Source: Anaerobium acetethylicum (GTDB lineage: Bacteria; Bacillota; Clostridia; Lachnospirales; Lachnospiraceae). Taken from it: DNA of 64,000 nucleotides. The translations under genes and the position numbers were made by a program. Of the stretch, positions 6,838 to 22,508 are shown one piece after another; within the stretch, counting starts at the first letter, position 1; each line of letters begins with the position of its first letter. The notes beneath the pieces were generated by a model. The model was not told the origin of the DNA, made no database searches, and saw only the letters and a program-made list of their open reading frames with translations. The DNA lies in NCBI RefSeq assembly GCF_900096945.1, contig NZ_FMKA01000002.1:186001-250000 (forward strand), in the 5' to 3' direction.

Positions 6838-7614
6838 ATGAAAACAATAAAAGAATTATATGCATATAGACATATGATATACAGTTTGGTACGGAGGGAT
6901 TTGCGAGGTCGTTATAAGGGATCTGTCTTGGGTTTTTTATGGACTTTTCTGAATCCTTTATTTCAGCTGATCATATATACGATTTTGTTTTCGGTGATTT
7001 TACCAAGCAACATTGACAAGTTTTATTTGTTTTTATTTGTTGCTCTAGTACCGTGGATATTTTTCAGTACATGTTTAATTGGTGGATCCGCATGTATTTT
7101 AGCGCAACAGGATATGGTTAAGAAAATTTATTTTCCTAGAGAAGTTTTGCCGCTGGCCTATGTAACAAGCCAGTTTATTAACATGATTTATTCTTTTGTC
7201 GTTATTTTTATCGTGGTATTGATATCGGGAAAAGGTATTAATGTTGTTGCATTGCTGTATCTTCCGATAATCATGCTTGTAGAGTATATTTTATGTCTTG
7301 GTATTACGATGCTCTTTTCAGGTCTTACGGTGTATCTTCGGGATTTGGAGTATATATTGGGGATAGTTGGAATGGCTTGGATGTATTTGACGCCAATCGT
7401 ATATTCAATCGATATAATAGATAAAAAGTTTTTGAAATTCTATTACATTAATCCAATGACTCCGATTATTACAGCATATCGCGATATTTTATATGAAAAG
7501 CAAATACCACAATTGAGTACATTAGTTCATGCTCTTGTGTTAGGCATATTGATTCTGGTACTTGGATGCTTTAGTTTTTCAAGGCTAAAAAGACGTTTTG
7601 CGGAGGAATTATAG
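6838..7614 (+). CDS. wzm: Polysaccharide ABC exporter, permease subunit (Wzm/TagG type)
   Basis: This is an ABC-2 membrane protein of 258 residues with about six hydrophobic spans. The family start LVRRDLRGRYKGSVLGFLW and the inner motif YLRDLEYILG are typical of Wzm/TagG/RfbA permeases. It forms the channel through which a lipid-linked polysaccharide made entirely in the cytoplasm is exported. A GGAG site lies 7-8 nt before the ATG. It is followed 2 bp later by its ATPase, so they form one unit. Codons are strikingly A/T-rich compared with the genes on either side of the block, a sign of horizontal acquisition of the 6.8-17 kb segment. Confidence 0.92.
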   Translation: MKTIKELYAYRHMIYSLVRRDLRGRYKGSVLGFLWTFLNPLFQLIIYTILFSVILPSNIDKFYLFLFVALVPWIFFSTCLIGGSACILAQQDMVKKIYFPREVLPLAYVTSQFINMIYSFVVIFIVVLISGKGINVVALLYLPIIMLVEYILCLGITMLFSGLTVYLRDLEYILGIVGMAWMYLTPIVYSIDIIDKKFLKFYYINPMTPIITAYRDILYEKQIPQLSTLVHALVLGILILVLGCFSFSRLKRRFAEEL

Positions 7615-7616
7615 TT

Positions 7617-8966
7617 ATGAAAAATGGAAATGCCATTGAAGTGATTGATGTTAAGAAGAATTTTCGTGTATATCATGATAAGGGAAGAACATTAAAGGAA
7701 AGACTGTTGTTCTTAAATAGAAACAGGTATGAAGAAAGGTGGGTTCTGAAAGGAATTAGCTTTGAAGTGAAAAAAGGAGAAGCAATAGGACTTATTGGTG
7801 AAAATGGGTGTGGTAAGAGTACAACCTTAAAACTATTGACCCAAATTATGTACCCGGATAGCGGCAGTATAGAGATAAAAGGAAGGGTTTCCAGTCTGAT
7901 TGAGTTGGGTGCTGGTTTTCATCCCGATATGAGCGGAAGGGAAAATATATATACGAATGCATCAATATTTGGTCTTACCAAGAAGGAAATTGATATGCGT
8001 ATGAAGGATATCATTGAGTTTTCGGAGCTAGAGGAATTTTTAGATAACCCGGTGCGTACATATTCTTCAGGTATGTATATGCGACTTGCATTTTCGGTGG
8101 CAATCAATGTGGATGCAGATGTTCTTCTGATTGATGAAATCCTTGCAGTGGGGGACTCCAATTTTCAGGCAAAGTGCTTCAATAAACTTCGTGAATTGAA
8201 AGCAGCAGGTATAACAATCGCGATTGTAACACATGATTCTGGAACAATAGAGAAATTCTGTGACAAGGCTGTTTGGATTAGTAAAGGAGAAGTTGTTTCT
8301 AGTGGCAAGGCAGCCAAGGTTGTGGATGCATATCTAAAGCATATGAATGATAAAAAAGTACAATCATTACTGAATAAAGAGGAAAAAGAGAGAGCAATAG
8401 AAGAACAAAATGCAGAAAAGTCTTGCGAGATAGAAATGAGTAGTGAGTCTGTATCAGATGTAGAAACTGAGAATGCTCAAGAGACAGTTTCTTCAGTGGA
8501 TGTGGGGGCGGAAAAGACAAAGCCAGAGATTGACTATAGCGCAAATCACTTTGGGCTTGGCCAGGCAGAAATAGTGCAAGCTTATTTCATAAATGAACAA
8601 GGCAATAAAACACAGGTGCTAAAGGCGGGAGAGAAGGCAGAAGTAGTAATGCACTATAAAGTTAATAAGCAATTAGGGGGATATGTGTTTGGAATAGGTT
8701 TCTATGATTTGGAAGGCCGTTGTTTATTGGGGTCAAATACGCAGTTGGACAGAGTGGAAGTTTTGCATTCGAAAATGAAGGGAATCGTAAAATTCAAGAT
8801 GGAAAACCTTCCACTATTAACGGGAAAATATATATTAAATGTAGCTATTGTTGATGATAATGGCATGCCATTAGATTTCTATCGCGATTATTGCCATTTT
8901 GATGTTGTATCAGATGATCGCAGCGTTGGCTATATGTCAATACCACACAAATGGGAACTGGAATAG
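7617..8966 (+). CDS. wzt: Polysaccharide ABC exporter, ATPase with C-terminal carbohydrate-binding domain (Wzt type)
   Basis: Residues 1-240 form an ABC ATPase: Walker A GENGCGKST, signature YSSGMYMRLAF, Walker B VLLIDEILAVGD. A Glu/Ser-rich linker follows (about 242-305), then a ~140-residue beta-sandwich of the Wzt C-terminal type (YKVNKQLGGYVFGIGF, LPLLTGKYILNVAI). In E. coli O8/O9a and similar systems this domain recognises the modified non-reducing end of the finished chain and couples termination to export. Its presence next to a methyltransferase therefore suggests that a terminal methyl or related cap is the export signal (inference). The GGAGGA ribosome site is strong. Confidence 0.92.
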   Translation: MKNGNAIEVIDVKKNFRVYHDKGRTLKERLLFLNRNRYEERWVLKGISFEVKKGEAIGLIGENGCGKSTTLKLLTQIMYPDSGSIEIKGRVSSLIELGAGFHPDMSGRENIYTNASIFGLTKKEIDMRMKDIIEFSELEEFLDNPVRTYSSGMYMRLAFSVAINVDADVLLIDEILAVGDSNFQAKCFNKLRELKAAGITIAIVTHDSGTIEKFCDKAVWISKGEVVSSGKAAKVVDAYLKHMNDKKVQSLLNKEEKERAIEEQNAEKSCEIEMSSESVSDVETENAQETVSSVDVGAEKTKPEIDYSANHFGLGQAEIVQAYFINEQGNKTQVLKAGEKAEVVMHYKVNKQLGGYVFGIGFYDLEGRCLLGSNTQLDRVEVLHSKMKGIVKFKMENLPLLTGKYILNVAIVDDNGMPLDFYRDYCHFDVVSDDRSVGYMSIPHKWELE

Positions 8967-8989: not shown

Positions 8990-10141
8990 ATGGAGTTTGG
9001 CAGTATAGAAGAAAAAGTGATATATGAAAAACTGAAAAACGGGATGCAAGTGGATTGTAGAAAGAATAATGGAGTGGGTACGTCAAATACAATTCCTGGA
9101 AGTGATTTTTCAAATGAAACGATAAACCAGTATTTTGATGAAATAACAAGAAATATTGCTGTAATGAATAGTACTAGTTATAATACTTCTAATCGGCTTA
9201 TAAACAGTTACAGAGGGAAACTGGGAATTCTAGCGAAGCGTGCTATACGTAAAATCTTGAGATGGTATATTGAACCGGTTTGTGAGCAGCAGAGTGCCTT
9301 TAATAATGCAGTCACTCCAAGTATTGGAAGAATGACTGAGATTATGGATAAATTGAAAGAACAAAATCACGAAATGCAGACGATATTGAACATGACTAAT
9401 AGTAAGCTAAATGAAATTGCAGATCGTATTGAGGAGGCAGACCTACCTGCTTTACAAAATACTGAGAACAACTTCTGGATTAAGAAAACAGCTGCACAAT
9501 CGGGTGAGGATGCAATTGTTGCCTTTATTTTAATGGAGCTGGGAGTCTCTATGAATGAATGTAAGTATCTCGATTTGGGTGCAAACCATGCTAAGTTTCT
9601 AAGCAACACATTTTATTTTTACTCACAAGGGGCAAGAGGAGTACTGGTAGAGGCAAATCCTGCTTTAATACCTGAATTGAAGTTTTACAGACATGGAGAT
9701 GTTATTTTAAATAAATGTATTACAACAAAATCCAATGATATTGTAGAATTTTATGTTCTGAATGGGGATGGTTTATCAACTCCGGATAAGGATGCCGCAG
9801 AGGAATTTATCAGGAAAAATCCAGCGCTGGAAATAAAAGAAGTTATAAAAGTAGAAACTATATCAGTAAATGATATTATAGAAACTTATTTTGGAGAAGC
9901 TCCAACAATCGTAAATATTGATATAGAGGGAAAAGAGTTAGAGGTATTGGAGTCAATTAACTGGGATAAATATCGACCAGTAATTGTTATTGCAGAAATG
10001 ATAGAATATAAACCCAAAATTGGAATTAGAACAAAAAATTCTGAAATATTAGACTTTATGAAAGATAAAGGTTATGAAGAATATGCATTTACTGGTATTA
10101 ATTCAATATTTATAGATAAAGCCAGACTTGGGGAGGATTAA
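8990..10141 (+). CDS. FkbM-family methyltransferase with N-terminal coiled-coil module
   Basis: The C-terminal ~220 residues are an FkbM/Methyltransf_21 SAM-dependent methyltransferase: YLDLGANHAKFLSN is the SAM loop, VLVEANPALIPELK follows, and IVNIDIEGKELEVL closes the fold. The N-terminal ~150 residues contain a basic helical segment (KRAIRKILRWYIEPV), the pattern QQSAFNNAV, and a heptad-rich stretch from about 105 to 150. A similar basic helix-QN.FN-coil pattern recurs in the separate 149-residue protein at 12867. Lying between wzt and the large GT4-GT4 enzyme, it is a good candidate for O-methylating the polysaccharide, perhaps as chain terminator. FkbM enzymes can also methylate internal sugars, so that role is not proven. 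Confidence 0.85.
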   Translation: MEFGSIEEKVIYEKLKNGMQVDCRKNNGVGTSNTIPGSDFSNETINQYFDEITRNIAVMNSTSYNTSNRLINSYRGKLGILAKRAIRKILRWYIEPVCEQQSAFNNAVTPSIGRMTEIMDKLKEQNHEMQTILNMTNSKLNEIADRIEEADLPALQNTENNFWIKKTAAQSGEDAIVAFILMELGVSMNECKYLDLGANHAKFLSNTFYFYSQGARGVLVEANPALIPELKFYRHGDVILNKCITTKSNDIVEFYVLNGDGLSTPDKDAAEEFIRKNPALEIKEVIKVETISVNDIIETYFGEAPTIVNIDIEGKELEVLESINWDKYRPVIVIAEMIEYKPKIGIRTKNSEILDFMKDKGYEEYAFTGINSIFIDKARLGED

Positions 10142-10143
10142 GT

Positions 10144-12687
10144 ATGAACATAGCATTTGATGCTGCTGCAATATTTGGCCCTATGAGCAAAAATCGGGGC
10201 ATAGGAAATTACGCTGTGGATCAGTTTAAGACAATGATACAAAGGGATACGGAAAACAGATACTTTCTGCTTAATTTTTTTGAAGATGTTAATATGGATA
10301 ATTGGTTGCCGGAAAGTGAAAATTTCTCGTCGCACTATTTTTACTGTGGTAAGGATAACTTTCTTCTGAGTAATCCGGAATATCAGGAGGTAATCGGAGA
10401 TATTATTAAAAAATTTAATCGAGAATACAGTATTGACATTTTCTACATCACTTCCCCATTTGAGTCACGCAATGTGAAATATAAAAAAGAATGGTTTGGA
10501 AACGTTAATGTTGTTGCAACTGTTTATGATATTATTCCATACGTTTTTAAGGACAGATACATTGCTGATTCAGATACATATGAATGGTACATGAGCTGTA
10601 TTGAAATGTTGAAATGGATTGATAAACTATACGTGATATCTAATAGTGTAAAAGATGATATGATCAAATATCTTGAATTTGATCCAAATCAAATAGATGT
10701 AATCTACGGCGCGGTTAGTGAGATGTACAAAGAAATCGAGATTTCTGAAGGACAAGTGAACAGCTTGTTTTCGAAGTTTGGTATCGAAAATGATTATATT
10801 ATGTGTACGGGTGGAGATGATGACAGGAAGAATATAGGCAGCTTGATTTTAGCATATTCAAAAATGCCAGCGGAGCTGATTGAGAAATATCAGTTGGTTG
10901 TAGTGTGTAAACTCTCGGCGGAAGCAGTTGATAAATACATAAAAATCATAAATGAGAATGGGATTGCAGGAAGAGTGATACTCACTAATTTTGTTTCCTC
11001 TTCTGAATTAATTCAGTTATATAATAAAGCTTATCTAATGGCCTTTCCATCTCAGTACGAGGGATTTGGCCTGCCTATTGTAGAAGCCTGGGCGTGTGGA
11101 ACACCTGTATTAACATCTGACAATTCCAGCCTGGGTGAAATAGCAGCTGAGTCTGCTATTCTTGTAAATCCTTTCGAAGTGCAGTCGATAACAGAGGGAC
11201 TGGTTTATGCCCTAAAGAGAGCTGATTTAGATGAGTTTATTGAAAAAGGAAGAAAACGACTGGAAAAATTCCGCTGGAACGTTGTTGCAGATGCAACTAT
11301 CGAGCTGCTGAATCAATTGGTTGAAAAGAAAGTCAGCAATGATACGAAGCAGAAAGCACGCGAGAAAATTGCGTTTTTTACTCCGTTGCCACCGTTACAG
11401 TCAGGAATCTCTGATTATAGTGTCGATATCATTGGAGAACTAAGCCAGTACTTTGATATTGATGTGTATATTGATAATGGTTATAAGGCAAACTGCGAAC
11501 TTGCGGATAATGTAAATATCTATAATCATAAAAAATTCAAAAAGAAAGAAGCAGGGTATTTTGATATTGTATATCAGATGGGGAATTCTGAATACCATGA
11601 ATATATGATGCCTTATATTAAAGCTAATAAGGGAACTGTGGTATTACATGATTATAATCTGCATTCACTGCTACAGTATCTGACTTTATATAAACAGTCC
11701 AATAATATGAAGCAATACGAAAAGTATCTGCTTGAAGATTTTGATATAGAAACGGTAGAAGAATATCTGAAGAATCTTCAGAACCGAACTACTGATATAG
11801 AAATTAGCGGGATGGAGTTGAATGGGTGCGTTTCAAACTATGCGAATAAAATTATCGTTCATAGCGATGAAGCAAGAGAAAAGCTTTTGACACGTAACAT
11901 AGGAAGAAATGTGAGGTGCATAAGACATTATGCAAAAATCGAATCATTGGTTGATAAATCTACACTCAAAACGAAAAATAATTTTTTGGAAGATGAAATA
12001 GTGATTGCATCATTTGGTCATATTCATGAGACCAAAAGGGCTATTCCAATTCTTAAAGCATTTGCTATGCTTTGCAAAAAATATAATAACCTTCGATATA
12101 ATTTCGTTGGTAAATTGGATAAAGGCATTAAAAACAATTTTGAGGATATCGTTCAACAGCATAATTTAGGGGAATTGGTAACGGTAACAGGGTATACGGA
12201 ACTTGAACAATTTGAAGAATTTATTGATTTTACCGATATCTGTGTTAACCTCCGTCATCCTTATAATGGAGAGACTAGCGGCAGTCTTATGCGTGAATTA
12301 GCAAAAGGAAAGTGCGTGCTGATAAATAACCTGGGAAGCTTTAGCGAGATTCCGGATGAGGGATGTGTTAAAATCCCCCCGGTTTCTGAGATGCAGGAGC
12401 ATGAAGAGGTCCAGGCGATCTATGATGCACTTGAAGCTCTCGTTGAAGATAGAGCTCGAATTGATGAAATTGGGATGAAGGCTCGTGAATATGCTATTAA
12501 AAATCTTGCGCTTGATAAAATTGGAATCCACTATAAAAACTTTATCTGCAATCAGGAAAAATCGGCTATTACGGAAAAAATCATGAAAGATATCATAGGG
12601 TATGAATTGATTGATAAGAGCTATAATTCGGAAGAAGTTAAGCAGCTGGCCACAACATTAGGATACAGTAAGAGTTATATGCACTAG
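10144..12687 (+). CDS. Bifunctional tandem GT4-GT4 glycosyltransferase
   Basis: The 847 residues hold two complete GT-B units. The first (1 to about 395) starts NIAFDAAAIFGP, has RGIGNYAV and the donor motif FPSQYEGFGLPIVEAW. The second (from about 400) restarts with IAFFTPLPPLQSGISDYS and ends with a degenerate donor site (NLRHPYNGETSGSLMRELAKG). Such double GT4 proteins occur in polymannan and D-rhamnan loci, where each half makes one linkage of the repeat. The start is 2 bp after the methyltransferase with GGGGAGG upstream. A second protein of the same layout is at 13394; the two share the second-domain opening (P.P.QSGI.DY / PWPDQQTGIANY), so they are paralogs or co-evolved partners. Confidence 0.87.
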   Translation: MNIAFDAAAIFGPMSKNRGIGNYAVDQFKTMIQRDTENRYFLLNFFEDVNMDNWLPESENFSSHYFYCGKDNFLLSNPEYQEVIGDIIKKFNREYSIDIFYITSPFESRNVKYKKEWFGNVNVVATVYDIIPYVFKDRYIADSDTYEWYMSCIEMLKWIDKLYVISNSVKDDMIKYLEFDPNQIDVIYGAVSEMYKEIEISEGQVNSLFSKFGIENDYIMCTGGDDDRKNIGSLILAYSKMPAELIEKYQLVVVCKLSAEAVDKYIKIINENGIAGRVILTNFVSSSELIQLYNKAYLMAFPSQYEGFGLPIVEAWACGTPVLTSDNSSLGEIAAESAILVNPFEVQSITEGLVYALKRADLDEFIEKGRKRLEKFRWNVVADATIELLNQLVEKKVSNDTKQKAREKIAFFTPLPPLQSGISDYSVDIIGELSQYFDIDVYIDNGYKANCELADNVNIYNHKKFKKKEAGYFDIVYQMGNSEYHEYMMPYIKANKGTVVLHDYNLHSLLQYLTLYKQSNNMKQYEKYLLEDFDIETVEEYLKNLQNRTTDIEISGMELNGCVSNYANKIIVHSDEAREKLLTRNIGRNVRCIRHYAKIESLVDKSTLKTKNNFLEDEIVIASFGHIHETKRAIPILKAFAMLCKKYNNLRYNFVGKLDKGIKNNFEDIVQQHNLGELVTVTGYTELEQFEEFIDFTDICVNLRHPYNGETSGSLMRELAKGKCVLINNLGSFSEIPDEGCVKIPPVSEMQEHEEVQAIYDALEALVEDRARIDEIGMKAREYAIKNLALDKIGIHYKNFICNQEKSAITEKIMKDIIGYELIDKSYNSEEVKQLATTLGYSKSYMH

Positions 12688-12866: not shown

Positions 12867-13316
12867 ATGTATGATAAAACAATCAATGTAGCAGAGATTA
12901 TGAGAAAAATTAAAATGGAAGCTGTTCCAAAAAATATATGGGGTGATAGTGACGATGTCCAGCCGGAGGAAATAGTCAGATTTACAAAAAATAAATTAAT
13001 CGAGAGTTATAATGTTATAAATGAAACTGTTAATCGTGCAGAAGTATATAAAACTATCGGATATAGGACTCCGGAATTTGAAAGTCTTCCTAAATTCATC
13101 AGGCCGCTTTTTAAACTGGCATTTAAAGTGTTTGCTAAGGTGACACGCTATATCATAAAGGATCAGAATACATTTAATGAAGATATTCAGGCTTCATTGA
13201 AGTCGCTGACAGAAGGTCAGCAGTATATAATAAGAGCTATCGAATACATGGATGACAGGCTCGAAAAATTAACGGATACACAAGGAAAAGATAAGCGAAA
13301 CGAAAAAGAGGAATAG
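12867..13316 (+). CDS. Small helical protein resembling the N-terminal module of the FkbM methyltransferase
   Basis: I do not recognise a named family. The 149 residues are mostly charged and helical, with no signal peptide or clear membrane span. Residues ~80-115 (FIRPLFKLAFKVFAKVTRYI, then DQNTFNEDIQASL) match by eye the methyltransferase segment KRAIRKILRWYIEPV plus QQSAFNNAV, and both are followed by a coil-forming helix. The rest ends in KDKRNEKEE. An AGAGAGG site lies 10 nt before ATG 12867. The gene sits alone between two GT4-GT4 genes, with a 179-bp gap before it and 77 bp after. A scaffolding or membrane-peripheral role in the glycosyltransferase complex is a guess; the basic amphipathic helix could touch the membrane. 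Confidence 0.7.
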   Translation: MYDKTINVAEIMRKIKMEAVPKNIWGDSDDVQPEEIVRFTKNKLIESYNVINETVNRAEVYKTIGYRTPEFESLPKFIRPLFKLAFKVFAKVTRYIIKDQNTFNEDIQASLKSLTEGQQYIIRAIEYMDDRLEKLTDTQGKDKRNEKEE

Positions 13317-13393: not shown

Positions 13394-15769
13394 ATGAATA
13401 TTTTGATTGATGGCCAGACGTTGGAGACGATGGAAGTCAATAGAGGAATCGGAGTATATTTCAAAAATATTCTGGCAAATATGATGAAGCAGAGTTATGT
13501 GCATAATTGGTATATTACCATATCGAGAAAAGAATCATTAAAAACTCTGGATCCATGGATTTTAAAAAAAATCAAACCAATTGTTAGTAATAAGTTTGTG
13601 CCGGGAACTGACTATAGCCGTAACAATGTTTTTACACGGGAATTAAATAGAATCATAAAGGAAAAGAAAATTGATGCGGTATGGATACCGAATCCGTTAA
13701 TGATAAATGTATTATTTCCCGATGACAAGCTGGACTGCAAAATGTTTGCGACGATTTATGATCTGATACCAGTTGTGATGCCTGCCCCAGGATGGCCGAA
13801 AGAAATAAAAAAGGAATATGACAGGCGTCTTAATTATTTAAATGAGAAAGAGATAAATTTTTTCTTTATTTCAGAGGCAACAAAGAAGGATTTTGAAAAA
13901 TATGTCGGGATATGCAAAAGTAACAATAAGGTGACACTGCTTGCGGCAGATAGCAAGCTTTTTTACAGGAAAAGAGAAAAAAGTAGCCTTGGAGCTGAAC
14001 CATACATTGTTTTCACGGGAGGCTTTGATTATAGGAAGAATATCGGCGGAGCAATTGAAGCGCTGTCAAAAATGAAAAAAATATATTCAGATGCGGTTGT
14101 GGCAGCCATAAAATTATATATTGTATGCAGATGTTCTGAGGAGCAAAAGACTGAATTTTATAAGAAACTTAAAAAATTGGATCTTGAGAACCAGGTTATT
14201 CTTACAGGATATATTTCTGATGAGGAATTGTCTGAGTTGTATGCAGGAGCAGATGTATTCTTTTTTCCTTCACTGTATGAGGGGTTCGGACTGCCTATTC
14301 TCGAAGCAATGCTCGGAGGCGCATATATTTTAAGTGCCGATAACTCGTCACTGCCGGAGGTGTGTGGAAAACACGGAATGTTATGTAAAGCCGACGATGT
14401 GAATGATATGGCAAATAAGCTGTATCAGGCAATACAAAATGCGAAAAATGAAACAATGGAAGAAAAGCACGCACGACAGGAGTACGCAATGGGATTTTCC
14501 TGGGAGGAAGCGGCCATGGAGAGTCTTTCTGCAATAGAGGGCGTGGAGATTATGGAAGAAGATGGAGAGAAAAAAAAGATAGCAATCGTAACTCCATGGC
14601 CCGACCAGCAAACAGGAATTGCCAATTATGTATTTAAATTCGTTCCATATCTTAGCAAGTACTTTGAGGTTGATATTTTTATCGACAATACGATAGAAAA
14701 AAAATGCCAGTTCAGGCCGAACAACTATGGAAATATTTACAATATAAAAGAACTGGACAGCAGGCATGATGATTATGAGCAGATCCTGTATCAGATGGGC
14801 AATAACAGCAGTTTCCATACCGGAGTCTATAATTATCTGAAGAAATACCCGGGAATTGTTGAAATTCATGATTTCATATTACAGCCTTTTTTCTACCATT
14901 CTTATTTCCTGAAAAAGCAGTACGACGTTTTCGCCGAAGCTATAGAACTAGGATATGGAGAAGAAGGTCTGGATTATTTCAGAAATCTGAAGCAAGGCAA
15001 TATACAGAATGAGAATTTCCAGTTCCCTATGAGCCATTCTGTCAGCAGAGCAGCAAAAAAAACCATTTTCCACAATCACTGGTCGGGTGAACAGATGGGG
15101 GACAGGGAAGATATAGTCATAATCCCACTGCCATGCCATGACAGGTTTGATGTGAATCCAGCTACAGCCGAAAGTATCAGGGAAGGATTTCTAAAAAAAT
15201 TCAACATTCATAGTGGAGAAATCGTAATTGGGTGTTTTGGATTTGTAAATGAGAACAAACGTCCGGACAAAATAATCAGTGCTGTTGAAAAGTTGATTGA
15301 GAAGAATTTGAAATTGAGGCTTGTTTTTTTTGGGAAATCGAATTTTTCGGGGATGAACGATATAATCAGGCAGAAGAACCTGGAGGGTATAGTTCACATC
15401 ACAGGTTATGTAGACTATGACGAATATGCGGTAGGTTTGGAAATGTGCGATATCATAGTGAATCTGAGATACCCTTCCATGGGTGAAGCGTCAGGCACTC
15501 TCTGTGAGGCATTCAAATATGGAAAGCCGGTGCTTGTGAGTGATATAAATCAGTATACGGAATACCCTGACGAAGTCTGCTGGAAGGTGCCGGTTGGCAG
15601 ATATGAAGTTGAGGTTATGGAAAAAATGCTGGAATATCTTATCGCTCATGAGGATGTAAGAAATGCACTAGGAAATAATGCAAAGGCCTATGCTGATACG
15701 GTATTAGCACCTGAAAGCATAGCAAAGATATATTATAACGTAATTCATACTTTTGAAGATATGGAGTGA
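13394..15769 (+). CDS. Bifunctional tandem GT4-GT4 glycosyltransferase
   Basis: This protein has 791 residues in two GT-B units. Unit one (1 to ~385) starts NILIDGQTLETMEVNRGIG, contains FTGGFDYRKNI and the donor signature FPSLYEGFGLPILEAM. Unit two begins KIAIVTPWPDQQTGIANY at ~395 and has the later motif NLRYPSMGEASGTLCEAF. It matches the 847-residue enzyme at 10144 in layout. Together they could supply up to four linkages of a repeat, typical of processive ABC-exported polymers. GGAGGG precedes the ATG. Base composition is A/T-rich like its neighbours upstream, shifting towards the flanking composition in its 3' half. Confidence 0.87.
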   Translation: MNILIDGQTLETMEVNRGIGVYFKNILANMMKQSYVHNWYITISRKESLKTLDPWILKKIKPIVSNKFVPGTDYSRNNVFTRELNRIIKEKKIDAVWIPNPLMINVLFPDDKLDCKMFATIYDLIPVVMPAPGWPKEIKKEYDRRLNYLNEKEINFFFISEATKKDFEKYVGICKSNNKVTLLAADSKLFYRKREKSSLGAEPYIVFTGGFDYRKNIGGAIEALSKMKKIYSDAVVAAIKLYIVCRCSEEQKTEFYKKLKKLDLENQVILTGYISDEELSELYAGADVFFFPSLYEGFGLPILEAMLGGAYILSADNSSLPEVCGKHGMLCKADDVNDMANKLYQAIQNAKNETMEEKHARQEYAMGFSWEEAAMESLSAIEGVEIMEEDGEKKKIAIVTPWPDQQTGIANYVFKFVPYLSKYFEVDIFIDNTIEKKCQFRPNNYGNIYNIKELDSRHDDYEQILYQMGNNSSFHTGVYNYLKKYPGIVEIHDFILQPFFYHSYFLKKQYDVFAEAIELGYGEEGLDYFRNLKQGNIQNENFQFPMSHSVSRAAKKTIFHNHWSGEQMGDREDIVIIPLPCHDRFDVNPATAESIREGFLKKFNIHSGEIVIGCFGFVNENKRPDKIISAVEKLIEKNLKLRLVFFGKSNFSGMNDIIRQKNLEGIVHITGYVDYDEYAVGLEMCDIIVNLRYPSMGEASGTLCEAFKYGKPVLVSDINQYTEYPDEVCWKVPVGRYEVEVMEKMLEYLIAHEDVRNALGNNAKAYADTVLAPESIAKIYYNVIHTFEDME

Positions 15770-19067: not shown

Positions 19068-20006
19068 CTAAACCATCCCCCGCCAGTAATCCAGCGTTTC
19101 CTCCAGTGTCTGCTCCAGCCCGATCACCGGCTTCCATCCGGTGCAGCTCTTGAGCTTGAAGGCATCCGCCTCGATAACCGGCACATCAACAGGTCTCAGC
19201 CTGTCTGCGTCGATCTCAACCCTGATTTTCTTCTCGGACAGGGAGAGGATGAGTTCGAGTATACTGTTGATTTCCACGGCCCTGCCGCTGCCCACATTGT
19301 AGGTCTCGCCAGGCTTTCCATGCTCCATGAGCGCGGAATAGGATCTGACCACGTCCCGCACGTCGGTGAAGTCTCTTCGGGCGCTCAGGTTGCCTACCCG
19401 GATGACTGGCTCCCGGAGGCCTTTTTCGATTTCTGCCACCTGCTTGCAGAAATCGGCGACTACGAAGATCGGGGACTGGTTAGGTCCGATGTGGTTGAAT
19501 GCCCTTACGGACATGATGTCCATGCTGTAAGCCTGGGCATAGATTTTGCCTATCATGTTCTGGCATGCCTTGGTGGCTGCATAGATGTTTCCGGGACGGA
19601 GGACGTTCTCTTCCCCCACTGGCGTCTCATCTTCCCGGATATGGCCGTATTCCTCGCCTGAGCCGATGAGAAGCACCCTTGGACTGTAATCCAGTTCTCT
19701 GATGGCGTCAAGGAGGTTTACACTGCCCTTGATATTGACGTCTATGGTAAGCCCCGGGTTTTTCCAGGAAAGCGCCACCGAACTCTGGGCTGCAAGATGG
19801 AAAATGCAGTCAGGGCGTATGGCATTCAGCAGTGCTGAGATTTCCTGTCTGTTTAATATATCCAGATCGTACACTGAGGAGCTGCCGGTAAGAAAGGTCT
19901 CATGTTCCATTTTTGTTGCATATACCTGCCAGCCCAGATTGTTGTTCAGATGGTCGGCCAGATAGCTGCCGACGAATCCGGCTCCGCCTATTATAAGTGC
20001 TTTCAT
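19068..20006 (-). CDS. rmd: GDP-6-deoxy-4-keto-D-mannose reductase (GDP-D-rhamnose forming)
   Basis: This is a 312-residue extended short-chain dehydrogenase. The NAD(P)-binding GGAGFVGSYL is at residues 7-16, the catalytic pair NIYAATK follows the usual spacing, and GSGEEYG precedes it. The length and the RPDCIFHLAAQSSVALSW segment fit the Rmd subgroup, which reduces the Gmd product to GDP-D-rhamnose. A GDP-fucose synthase (WcaG/Fcl) is the alternative, but its typical GxxGMVGS start is absent. It is the last gene after gmd, separated by 99 bp with a hairpin. It would feed D-rhamnose to the GT4 enzymes of the locus. Confidence 0.8.
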   Translation of the reverse strand: MKALIIGGAGFVGSYLADHLNNNLGWQVYATKMEHETFLTGSSSVYDLDILNRQEISALLNAIRPDCIFHLAAQSSVALSWKNPGLTIDVNIKGSVNLLDAIRELDYSPRVLLIGSGEEYGHIREDETPVGEENVLRPGNIYAATKACQNMIGKIYAQAYSMDIMSVRAFNHIGPNQSPIFVVADFCKQVAEIEKGLREPVIRVGNLSARRDFTDVRDVVRSYSALMEHGKPGETYNVGSGRAVEINSILELILSLSEKKIRVEIDADRLRPVDVPVIEADAFKLKSCTGWKPVIGLEQTLEETLDYWRGMV

Positions 20007-20068
20007 ATGAGATTCTCCTTGTTTTTAGGATTGTGGGAGCACAAAGTGCGGAACAATCCGTAGGTATC

Positions 20069-20094
20069 AGGGGGCAAAACACCTTTTGCCCCCT
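20069..20094. other. Intercistronic hairpin between gmd and rmd
   Basis: AGGGGGCAAAA and TTTTGCCCCCT pair perfectly around a CACC loop. No T-run follows on the minus strand, so it is more likely an RNA-stability or processing structure than a terminator. Confidence 0.5.
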
Positions 20095-20105
20095 GCAGCA
20101 TGACA

Positions 20106-21191
<1,086 letters not shown>

Positions 21192-21245
21192 TTAAACCGC
21201 ATGTTTCCGCTGGCTGTCTTTCATGGATTATAACCGAACCGTCAT

Positions 21246-22316
21246 CTACAGATACTCATTGCGGTTACAGATTTTCAGGTTTTCAATGACCTTCTTGATG
21301 TCACCGGCATGGTCCTTGCTGCAGATCAGGGTAGCATCATCCGTATCCACGATGATCATGTCTTCGATTCCCACAGCTGCAATCAGCTTCTTAGAGCCTT
21401 CGATGATGCAGTTGCTGCTGTCGATCGTGATGATATTTCCATGGACAACATTTCCGTATTCGTTGGATTTCCTGATGCGGCCTACAGCAAGCCAGGATCC
21501 CACGTCATCCCAGCCAAAAGATCCGGGCAGGATATAAATGTTCTCCGCCTTTTCCATAATGCCGTAATCGATGGATTCGGACTCGAAGGCAGCGAATTCT
21601 TTTTCAAGAACAGAACCTTCTTCGGAGGTCCCGACGGAATCCCTGATTGTCATCAGGCCCTTGTAGGTATCCGGCATATAGATTTCGATATTCTTCAGTA
21701 TCGTGGAGGTCTTCCATACGAACATGCCGCTGTTCCAAAGATATTCTTCGGTTGCCAGATACTCCTTTGCAACTTCAAGGCTCGGCTTTTCTACGAACCG
21801 GTCCACCGCATATGCATGGTCTTCCAGGGAGTCGGAGTTGAATTTGATGTAGCCGTAGCCTGTTTCAGGATAATCCGGAGTGATTCCGATCGTCACGAGA
21901 TTTTCGCCCTTTTCGGCAATGGCGCAGGCATCTTTCAGAGTGGCGATGAACATGCTGTTGTATTTGATCAGATGGTCTGAAGGGAGCACCATCATTGTCG
22001 CATCCTCGTATTTTTTCGTGATGTGGACGGCGCCGAGCCCGATGCACGGAGCAGTGTTCCTGCTCATTGGCTCGCAGAGTATGTTTTCTTCCGGGATCCC
22101 GGGAAGCTGCTTCATAACAAGCGCCTTGTAATCTTTATTTGTCGCGATATAAATATCTTCCATTTCTACGATAGGAAGTATTCTCTCAACTGTATGCTGT
22201 ATCATGGTTCTGCCATCATCAGTCAGAGAAAGAAACTGTTTTGGCAGATCTTTTCTGCTCTTGGGCCAAAAACGCTCGCCGCGCCCGCCGGCCATAATCA
22301 GTGCTGTTTTTTTCAT
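21246..22316 (-). CDS. manC: Mannose-1-phosphate guanylyltransferase
   Basis: This makes GDP-mannose from mannose-1-phosphate and GTP, the first step of the GDP-sugar branch. The pyrophosphorylase signature IMAGGRGERFWPKSRKDLPK is at residues ~8-27, with VLPSDH and the FVEKPS sugar-binding motif further on. The 356-residue length is the monofunctional form without a phosphomannose isomerase domain. The track begins at 22379; the proper start is ATG 22316 (MKKTALIMAGG) with a GGGGG-rich site ~12 nt upstream. A promoter at 22577-22605 and a fold-back leader precede it. Mannose-1-phosphate could come from the divergent phosphohexomutase gene. Confidence 0.93.
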   Translation of the reverse strand: MKKTALIMAGGRGERFWPKSRKDLPKQFLSLTDDGRTMIQHTVERILPIVEMEDIYIATNKDYKALVMKQLPGIPEENILCEPMSRNTAPCIGLGAVHITKKYEDATMMVLPSDHLIKYNSMFIATLKDACAIAEKGENLVTIGITPDYPETGYGYIKFNSDSLEDHAYAVDRFVEKPSLEVAKEYLATEEYLWNSGMFVWKTSTILKNIEIYMPDTYKGLMTIRDSVGTSEEGSVLEKEFAAFESESIDYGIMEKAENIYILPGSFGWDDVGSWLAVGRIRKSNEYGNVVHGNIITIDSSNCIIEGSKKLIAAVGIEDMIIVDTDDATLICSKDHAGDIKKVIENLKICNRNEYL

Positions 22317-22348
22317 GGTGTTCTTATTCCCCCTGTTAAGATTTGAGT

Positions 22349-22508
22349 GCACTGACACATTGATATCTTGACAAATCACTTGCCTTGGTTTCCATCTGCG
22401 GCGTTGTCGTCAATCAGCGTAGCCACCGCTATGCCTCATTCCTCCGTCTTGCAGAATGAAAACCAATTCAGCGTCATTTGTCTAAGTGTCAATGTGTCAG
22501 CACACTAG
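22349..22508. repeat. Fold-back (long imperfect palindrome) element in the manC leader
   Basis: The ends GTGCACTGACACATTGATA and TGTCAATGTGTCAGCACAC are near-perfect inverted repeats. Complementarity continues inwards: CTTGACAAAT with ATTTGTCTAAG, and CTTGGTTTCCAT with ATGAAAACCAATTC. It is about 160 bp and codes for nothing. On RNA it would form one long hairpin between the manC promoter and start codon. MITE-like or leader structure; not distinguishable here. Confidence 0.6.

Follow-up and report, generated by a model that had tools for sequence, protein, structure and literature searches.

A short protein module, free or joined to enzymes in clostridial Wzm/Wzt polysaccharide loci, as a candidate docking adaptor

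Introduction

The 64,000 nucleotide stretch of the Anaerobium acetethylicum genome analysed here (the window) carries, between the genes for two giant glycosyltransferases, a gene for a protein of 149 residues, and the question that this locus raises is what such a protein might do in the synthesis of a polysaccharide. The original prediction regarded it as a free copy of a domain otherwise fused to an enzyme, akin to residues ~75–150 of a nearby FkbM protein, and proposed for it the role of an assembly adaptor, a ruler or a membrane-docking module. Tethering of polymerase, terminator and exporter is known for only a few Gram-negative O-antigens. If the reading developed below is right, a single gene of ~150 codons would provide a testable handle on enzyme tethering in gut Clostridia, and its sequence signature would mark the enzymes belonging to one assembly complex.

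Results

The gene and its neighbours

The open reading frame at 12867–13316 (plus strand) is intact, with an ATG start, 149 amino acids and a TAG stop. Its codon usage score was 0.196 per codon in frame (neighbouring genes, 0.08–0.21), and the other five frames over the same positions scored no higher than 0.10; this is a real coding gene. It lies downstream of, and on the same strand as, genes for a Wzm-type ABC permease (6838–7614; PF01061, E 5e-18), a Wzt-type ATPase with a C-terminal carbohydrate-binding domain (7617–8966; PF00005 and PF14524, Wzt_C, the latter with E 2e-29) and the FkbM protein (8990–10141), in which the methyltransferase domain occupies residues 195–363 (9572–10078; PF05050, E 5.9e-18). 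The claim that it sits between two giant glycosyltransferases was correct: both flanking proteins are of GT4-GT4 type with two stretches matching PF00534, one of 847 amino acids directly after the FkbM protein (10144–12687, plus strand) and one of 791 amino acids directly after the small protein (13394–15769, plus strand). A Pfam scan of the 149-residue protein found no domain; it has neither the FkbM catalytic domain PF05050 nor the methyltransferase domain, with or without a kinase, of the WbdD terminators. Two marginal matches, to PMT2_N in Pfam (E 0.08) and to an R2-like oxidase in NCBIfam (E 0.0095; 15 bits, where the cut-off is 274), were dismissed as noise.

Several other genes in the vicinity are worth recording. 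Just upstream of the polysaccharide operon, 149–1939 encodes a GHL10 hydrolase-like domain with four DUF4214 stretches. On the minus strand, 19068–22379 holds adjacent genes for a nucleotidyltransferase with a ManC-type beta-helix domain, a GDP-mannose dehydratase and a second GDP_Man_Dehyd/epimerase protein, a trio that could supply the locus with a GDP-6-deoxyhexose, for example GDP-D-rhamnose. A second Wzt_C protein is encoded upstream of the window on the same contig (G000:C49:168412-168822), and its match to PF14524 is much stronger than that of the Wzt in the window; this strong Wzt_C type is present in most genomes of the taxonomic family, and the modules described below usually lie beside weaker Wzt_C types.

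Relationship to the FkbM N-terminus

Direct comparison of the small protein with the FkbM N-terminus by BLASTP gave a weak match (20 bits, E 0.03), and a scan of genome contigs with the single sequence gave none. Since the direct comparison was marginal, relatives were collected stepwise, beginning with one in genome G030, then through profile surveys of the taxonomic family and the phylum, and then from 80 named loci. G030 represents another genus, in which a free module (26% identity, E 2.5e-4) occupies the same slot ahead of a GT4 protein sharing 55% identity with the product of 13394–15769 over the first 382 residues. A full-length profile built from 16 free modules of other genomes aligned end to end with residues 4–138 of the window protein at 18.1 bits, whereas no shuffle out of 3000 scored above 16.3, and a profile of the protein with its three nearest relatives matched the enzyme-fused modules with 94.6% probability (E 7e-8). 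The FkbM N-terminus itself (residues 1–154; 8990–9451, plus strand) scored 60.7 bits with the free-module profile, and the profiles of free and enzyme-fused modules matched one another with 99.3% probability (E 1.9e-20); the profiles behind these last two values exclude both the window and G030. Judged by these profiles, the 149-residue protein and the N-terminus of the FkbM protein belong to one family of modules, of which the former is a divergent member. Thus the profile–profile comparison proposed as a check bore out the suspected likeness, although the extent given for it was too small, as the module spans all 149 residues, including the N-terminal sequence INVAEIMRKIK that had been missed.

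This sequence (residues 6–16; 12882–12914) is the counterpart, in the full-length profile and in the alignment of the 16 free modules, of the family consensus [IV][ND][VI]E-x-IM-x-EIR. The core of the family, K[KR]x[IV]R[KR]....[FWY]..P[IV]..Q[NQ]..[FY]N, aligns without gaps in most members, and its terminal Q-x-x-[FY]-N had an invariant Q and N in 24 sequences; in the window protein they are Q100 and N104 of QNTFN (13164–13178). The proline five residues before the Q is common but not universal: the window protein has tyrosine there, and three G030 modules and some others also lack it, so that its absence is treated as a subfamily difference. Immediately before the motif lies a basic amphipathic helix (residues 75–99, PKFIRPLFKLAFKVFAKVTRYIIKD; 13089–13163) with a hydrophobic moment of 0.59 and a net charge of +5 over 18 residues, and nearly all members have a basic, amphipathic segment at this constant position. 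The helix is suggestive only, because 17% of the background proteins in these loci reach the module-median basic-amphipathic score somewhere. After the Q, the family as a whole shows a periodicity of 3.5 residues (power 4.34 against 1.01 when shuffled, shuffle maximum 1.65), corresponding in the window protein to a predicted coiled-coil segment at residues 105–148 (13179–13310; AlphaFold2 pLDDT ~90). AlphaFold2 predicted helices at 8–19, 41–54 and 79–148 for the window protein (pLDDT 80) and at 6–25, 42–61 and 77–154 for the FkbM protein (pLDDT 71); in these models the helices of the two are laid out alike, and the long helix contains the invariant Q and N. The likeness that the original prediction described between the two proteins, in a basic helix, a QN/QQ..FN motif and a following coil, is real.

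It is conceivable that this resemblance reflects nothing beyond a shared coiled-coil composition, which, like a lack of profile similarity, had been named in advance as the outcome that would speak against a relationship. The marginal BLASTP value fits such an explanation, as does the behaviour of profiles of the core alone, built without the window, with which the protein scored no better than its own shuffles. However, the full-length match takes in the N-terminal motif, the Q and N are invariant, the predicted helix layout is the same in both proteins, and the G030 module stands in the same slot ahead of a related GT4 gene; we consider an explanation by composition extremely improbable.

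Searches of Pfam and NCBIfam returned no named relative of the module, as had been anticipated, and it represents a family worth naming for genes that are unannotated in the libraries searched. A profile search of PDB sequences listed generic coiled coils only, Foldseek gave no match at E <= 0.001, and no WbdD entry was among the matches listed for the PDB-chain profile search, in which the C-terminal docking region of WbdD was absent from the comparison.

Distribution and gene context

The module was found in 24 of 299 genomes of the taxonomic family, and Wzt_C was present in 23 of these 24 genomes compared to 148 of the 275 others. The 80 named loci, which by record title come from Lachnospiraceae, Ruminococcus flavefaciens, Butyrivibrio and other Clostridia, hold 83 free modules and 10 fused or longer reading frames. 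Fusion partners recognised by Pfam were Methyltransf_23, FkbM and GT4, so that the suggested survey of clostridial loci did reveal fusions to other enzymes, namely class-I methyltransferases and GT4 enzymes. On the strength of these matches the module recurs in Clostridia, either free or enzyme-fused, in agreement with the idea of a detachable copy. A tblastn search of plasmids with a methyltransferase-fused module gave no match. Early matches at L003, L012, L016, L017, L019, L020 and L021 were judged to be chance or to lie on the other strand from the reading frames; at two of the early-match places, in G091 and G110, real modules were found on the opposite strand with a better profile. The match at L065, to a sigma-factor-like protein, was also due to chance.

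The gene following the module encodes a GT4 protein in 79 of 85 cases; for the other genes of these loci the figure is 143 of 501 (Fisher p ~1e-30, a value inflated by related strains). GT4 genes are common in such loci, and the median distance from the module stop codon to the next start is 1 nt. The gene preceding a free module encodes Wzt, a methyltransferase or a further GT4 protein. The gene at 12867–13316 likewise has a GT4 gene immediately downstream in a Wzm/Wzt locus, with a gap of 77 nt in place of the near-overlap usual in the family. Several loci, like the window, carry two or three modules, each preceding its own GT4 gene, and about a quarter of the module loci have no Wzt inside the stretch examined, partly owing to contig ends. 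Very large glycosyltransferases, which exceed both GT4-GT4 proteins of the window in length, directly follow a module in the Wzt slot at L005:10414-13716 (1100 amino acids) and from L081:11011 onward (~1026 amino acids).

So tight a link could also mean that the 149-residue protein stays off the membrane as a soluble companion of the adjacent GT4 enzyme, or assists its folding, by forming a helical bundle with it. The near-absolute presence of a downstream GT4 gene, the spacing suited to translational coupling and the fusion of the module to GT4 N-termini would all be accommodated in this way, but a helper of this sort has no need of the conserved basic amphipathic helix and leaves the fusions to methyltransferases unexplained, which makes it decidedly improbable.

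The slot after Wzt was found in two ARRANGEMENTS, fused and split. In the fused form, seen in the FkbM protein of the window and in most matches elsewhere in the phylum, the order is Wzm, Wzt, a single protein of module, coil and methyltransferase, and GT4; in the split form, seen in R. flavefaciens and many Lachnospiraceae, it is Wzm, Wzt, a coil–methyltransferase protein, a free module and GT4. The split methyltransferases retain a coil of their own of 92–245 residues, some with repeats, and of 34 methyltransferases directly upstream of a free module, one (L107) had a weak module match. In the fused proteins that were measured, 70–191 residues separate Q..FN from the methyltransferase, and in others the coil is longer, judging by Pfam start positions. 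Methyltransferases with tandem-repeat coils occur at L135:4580-5959, L141:4568-5959, L129:4851-6011 and L173:4514-5902 (a repeat being, for example, LEENTRNNNEALLQQQELWQAVRS), as expected if gain and loss of repeats adjusts coil length.

This wide spread of coil lengths, across fused and split proteins and with tandem repeats in some, would suit a function of the free module as a chain-length device, either pairing with the methyltransferase coils or competing for GT4 docking and so setting the number of polymerases per terminator. We regard this as unlikely, because the coils of the free modules themselves are short and because in several loci, with no methyltransferase in reach, each GT4 gene has one free module. 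Of the roles named in the original prediction, docking and assembly are favoured here, whereas that of a ruler would suit the coils of the fused or split methyltransferases better than the short free protein.

A relative of the FkbM protein in G130 (L080:14140-14805; E 4.5e-11 to the FkbM protein of the window) has an eroded SAM-binding region, with ~100 residues missing, and retains both the N-terminal module and the operon slot. Its retention of the module despite this loss suggests that the module is useful without catalysis. The same eroded protein might instead be taken as a hint that the 149-residue protein is a functionless remnant of a methyltransferase gene that has lost its enzyme domain. 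Against this, many genera have intact free modules, dozens in all, in which the Q and N are conserved, the codon usage of the window copy is normal, and the 77 nt before the next gene are too few to hold a methyltransferase relic, leaving a remnant very improbable.

Discussion

We propose, with a probability of roughly 60%, that the 149-residue protein is a non-catalytic membrane-docking and assembly adaptor of Wzm/Wzt-dependent polysaccharide synthesis. We favour this because the family is recurrent, is followed by a GT4 gene, co-occurs with Wzt_C and is found fused to Methyltransf_23, FkbM and GT4; because the slot after Wzt is filled by either the fused or the split form; and because the module outlives catalysis in G130, combines an amphipathic helix with coil periodicity, has matching AlphaFold2 layouts in its free and fused forms and has a precedent in WbdD. 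Counting against it are the background proteins that are equally basic and amphipathic, the divergence of the 149-residue copy, the 77 nt gap and the loci without Wzt.

A docking and assembly module is the most economical reading of these observations. The basic amphipathic helix (~residues 75–99) would sit at the inner membrane face, and beyond the invariant Q-x-x-[FY]-N the helix may run on as an oligomerising coiled coil. Coil and N-terminal helices together would bind the adjacent GT4 polymerase and hold it near the membrane and the exporter, and a chain-terminating methyltransferase would be held likewise at another place in that complex. Of the two modules in the window, the one that forms a single chain with the FkbM methyltransferase (the presumed chain terminator) would serve the first GT4-GT4 protein and the free one the second. 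More tentatively, and in our view with somewhat less than even odds, the module could be a detachable, non-catalytic docking subunit, with a copy for each GT4 polymerase and each terminator. The coils of these copies would join into a multi-enzyme assembly at the exporter, and anchor, ruler and terminator, which WbdD holds fixed in one protein, would be exchangeable on separate genes.

The closest known system is WbdD, in which a terminator and a coiled-coil ruler are followed by an amphipathic helix for the membrane and a site that recruits the polymerase (PMC11231755, PMC3482155). Known from E. coli O9a/O8 and K. pneumoniae O3/O5, it likewise works in a Wzm/Wzt pathway with a carbohydrate-binding Wzt, has a methyltransferase linked through a coiled coil to a region with an amphipathic helix and belongs to a system with a multi-domain glycosyltransferase polymerase, WbdA. 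By analogy, the clostridial module would have a role like that of the C-terminal end of WbdD in E. coli. The clostridial order is, however, reversed, with the module N-terminal, the proteins have no kinase, the methyltransferase family of the FkbM protein differs from that of WbdD, and the anchor, in hosts that are Clostridia, often stands as a protein of its own, additional copies of which precede other GT4 genes. In ORF6 of K. pneumoniae O7 and WbbB of O12, where terminator, coil and glycosyltransferases share one chain, modules are similarly spread in variable fashion over at least one protein to make one complex, but there the coil protein is always catalytic, whereas the non-catalytic clostridial module can be free. 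The FkbM family (PF05050, TIGR01444) is represented by the domain at residues 195–363 of the FkbM protein of the window; the 149-residue protein lacks it, and the module, appended to FkbM, does not belong to that family. No description of the module was found in the open-access literature, which is weak evidence of absence. Set beside these systems, the pathway is a known one, and a free, non-catalytic anchor module within it appears to be new.
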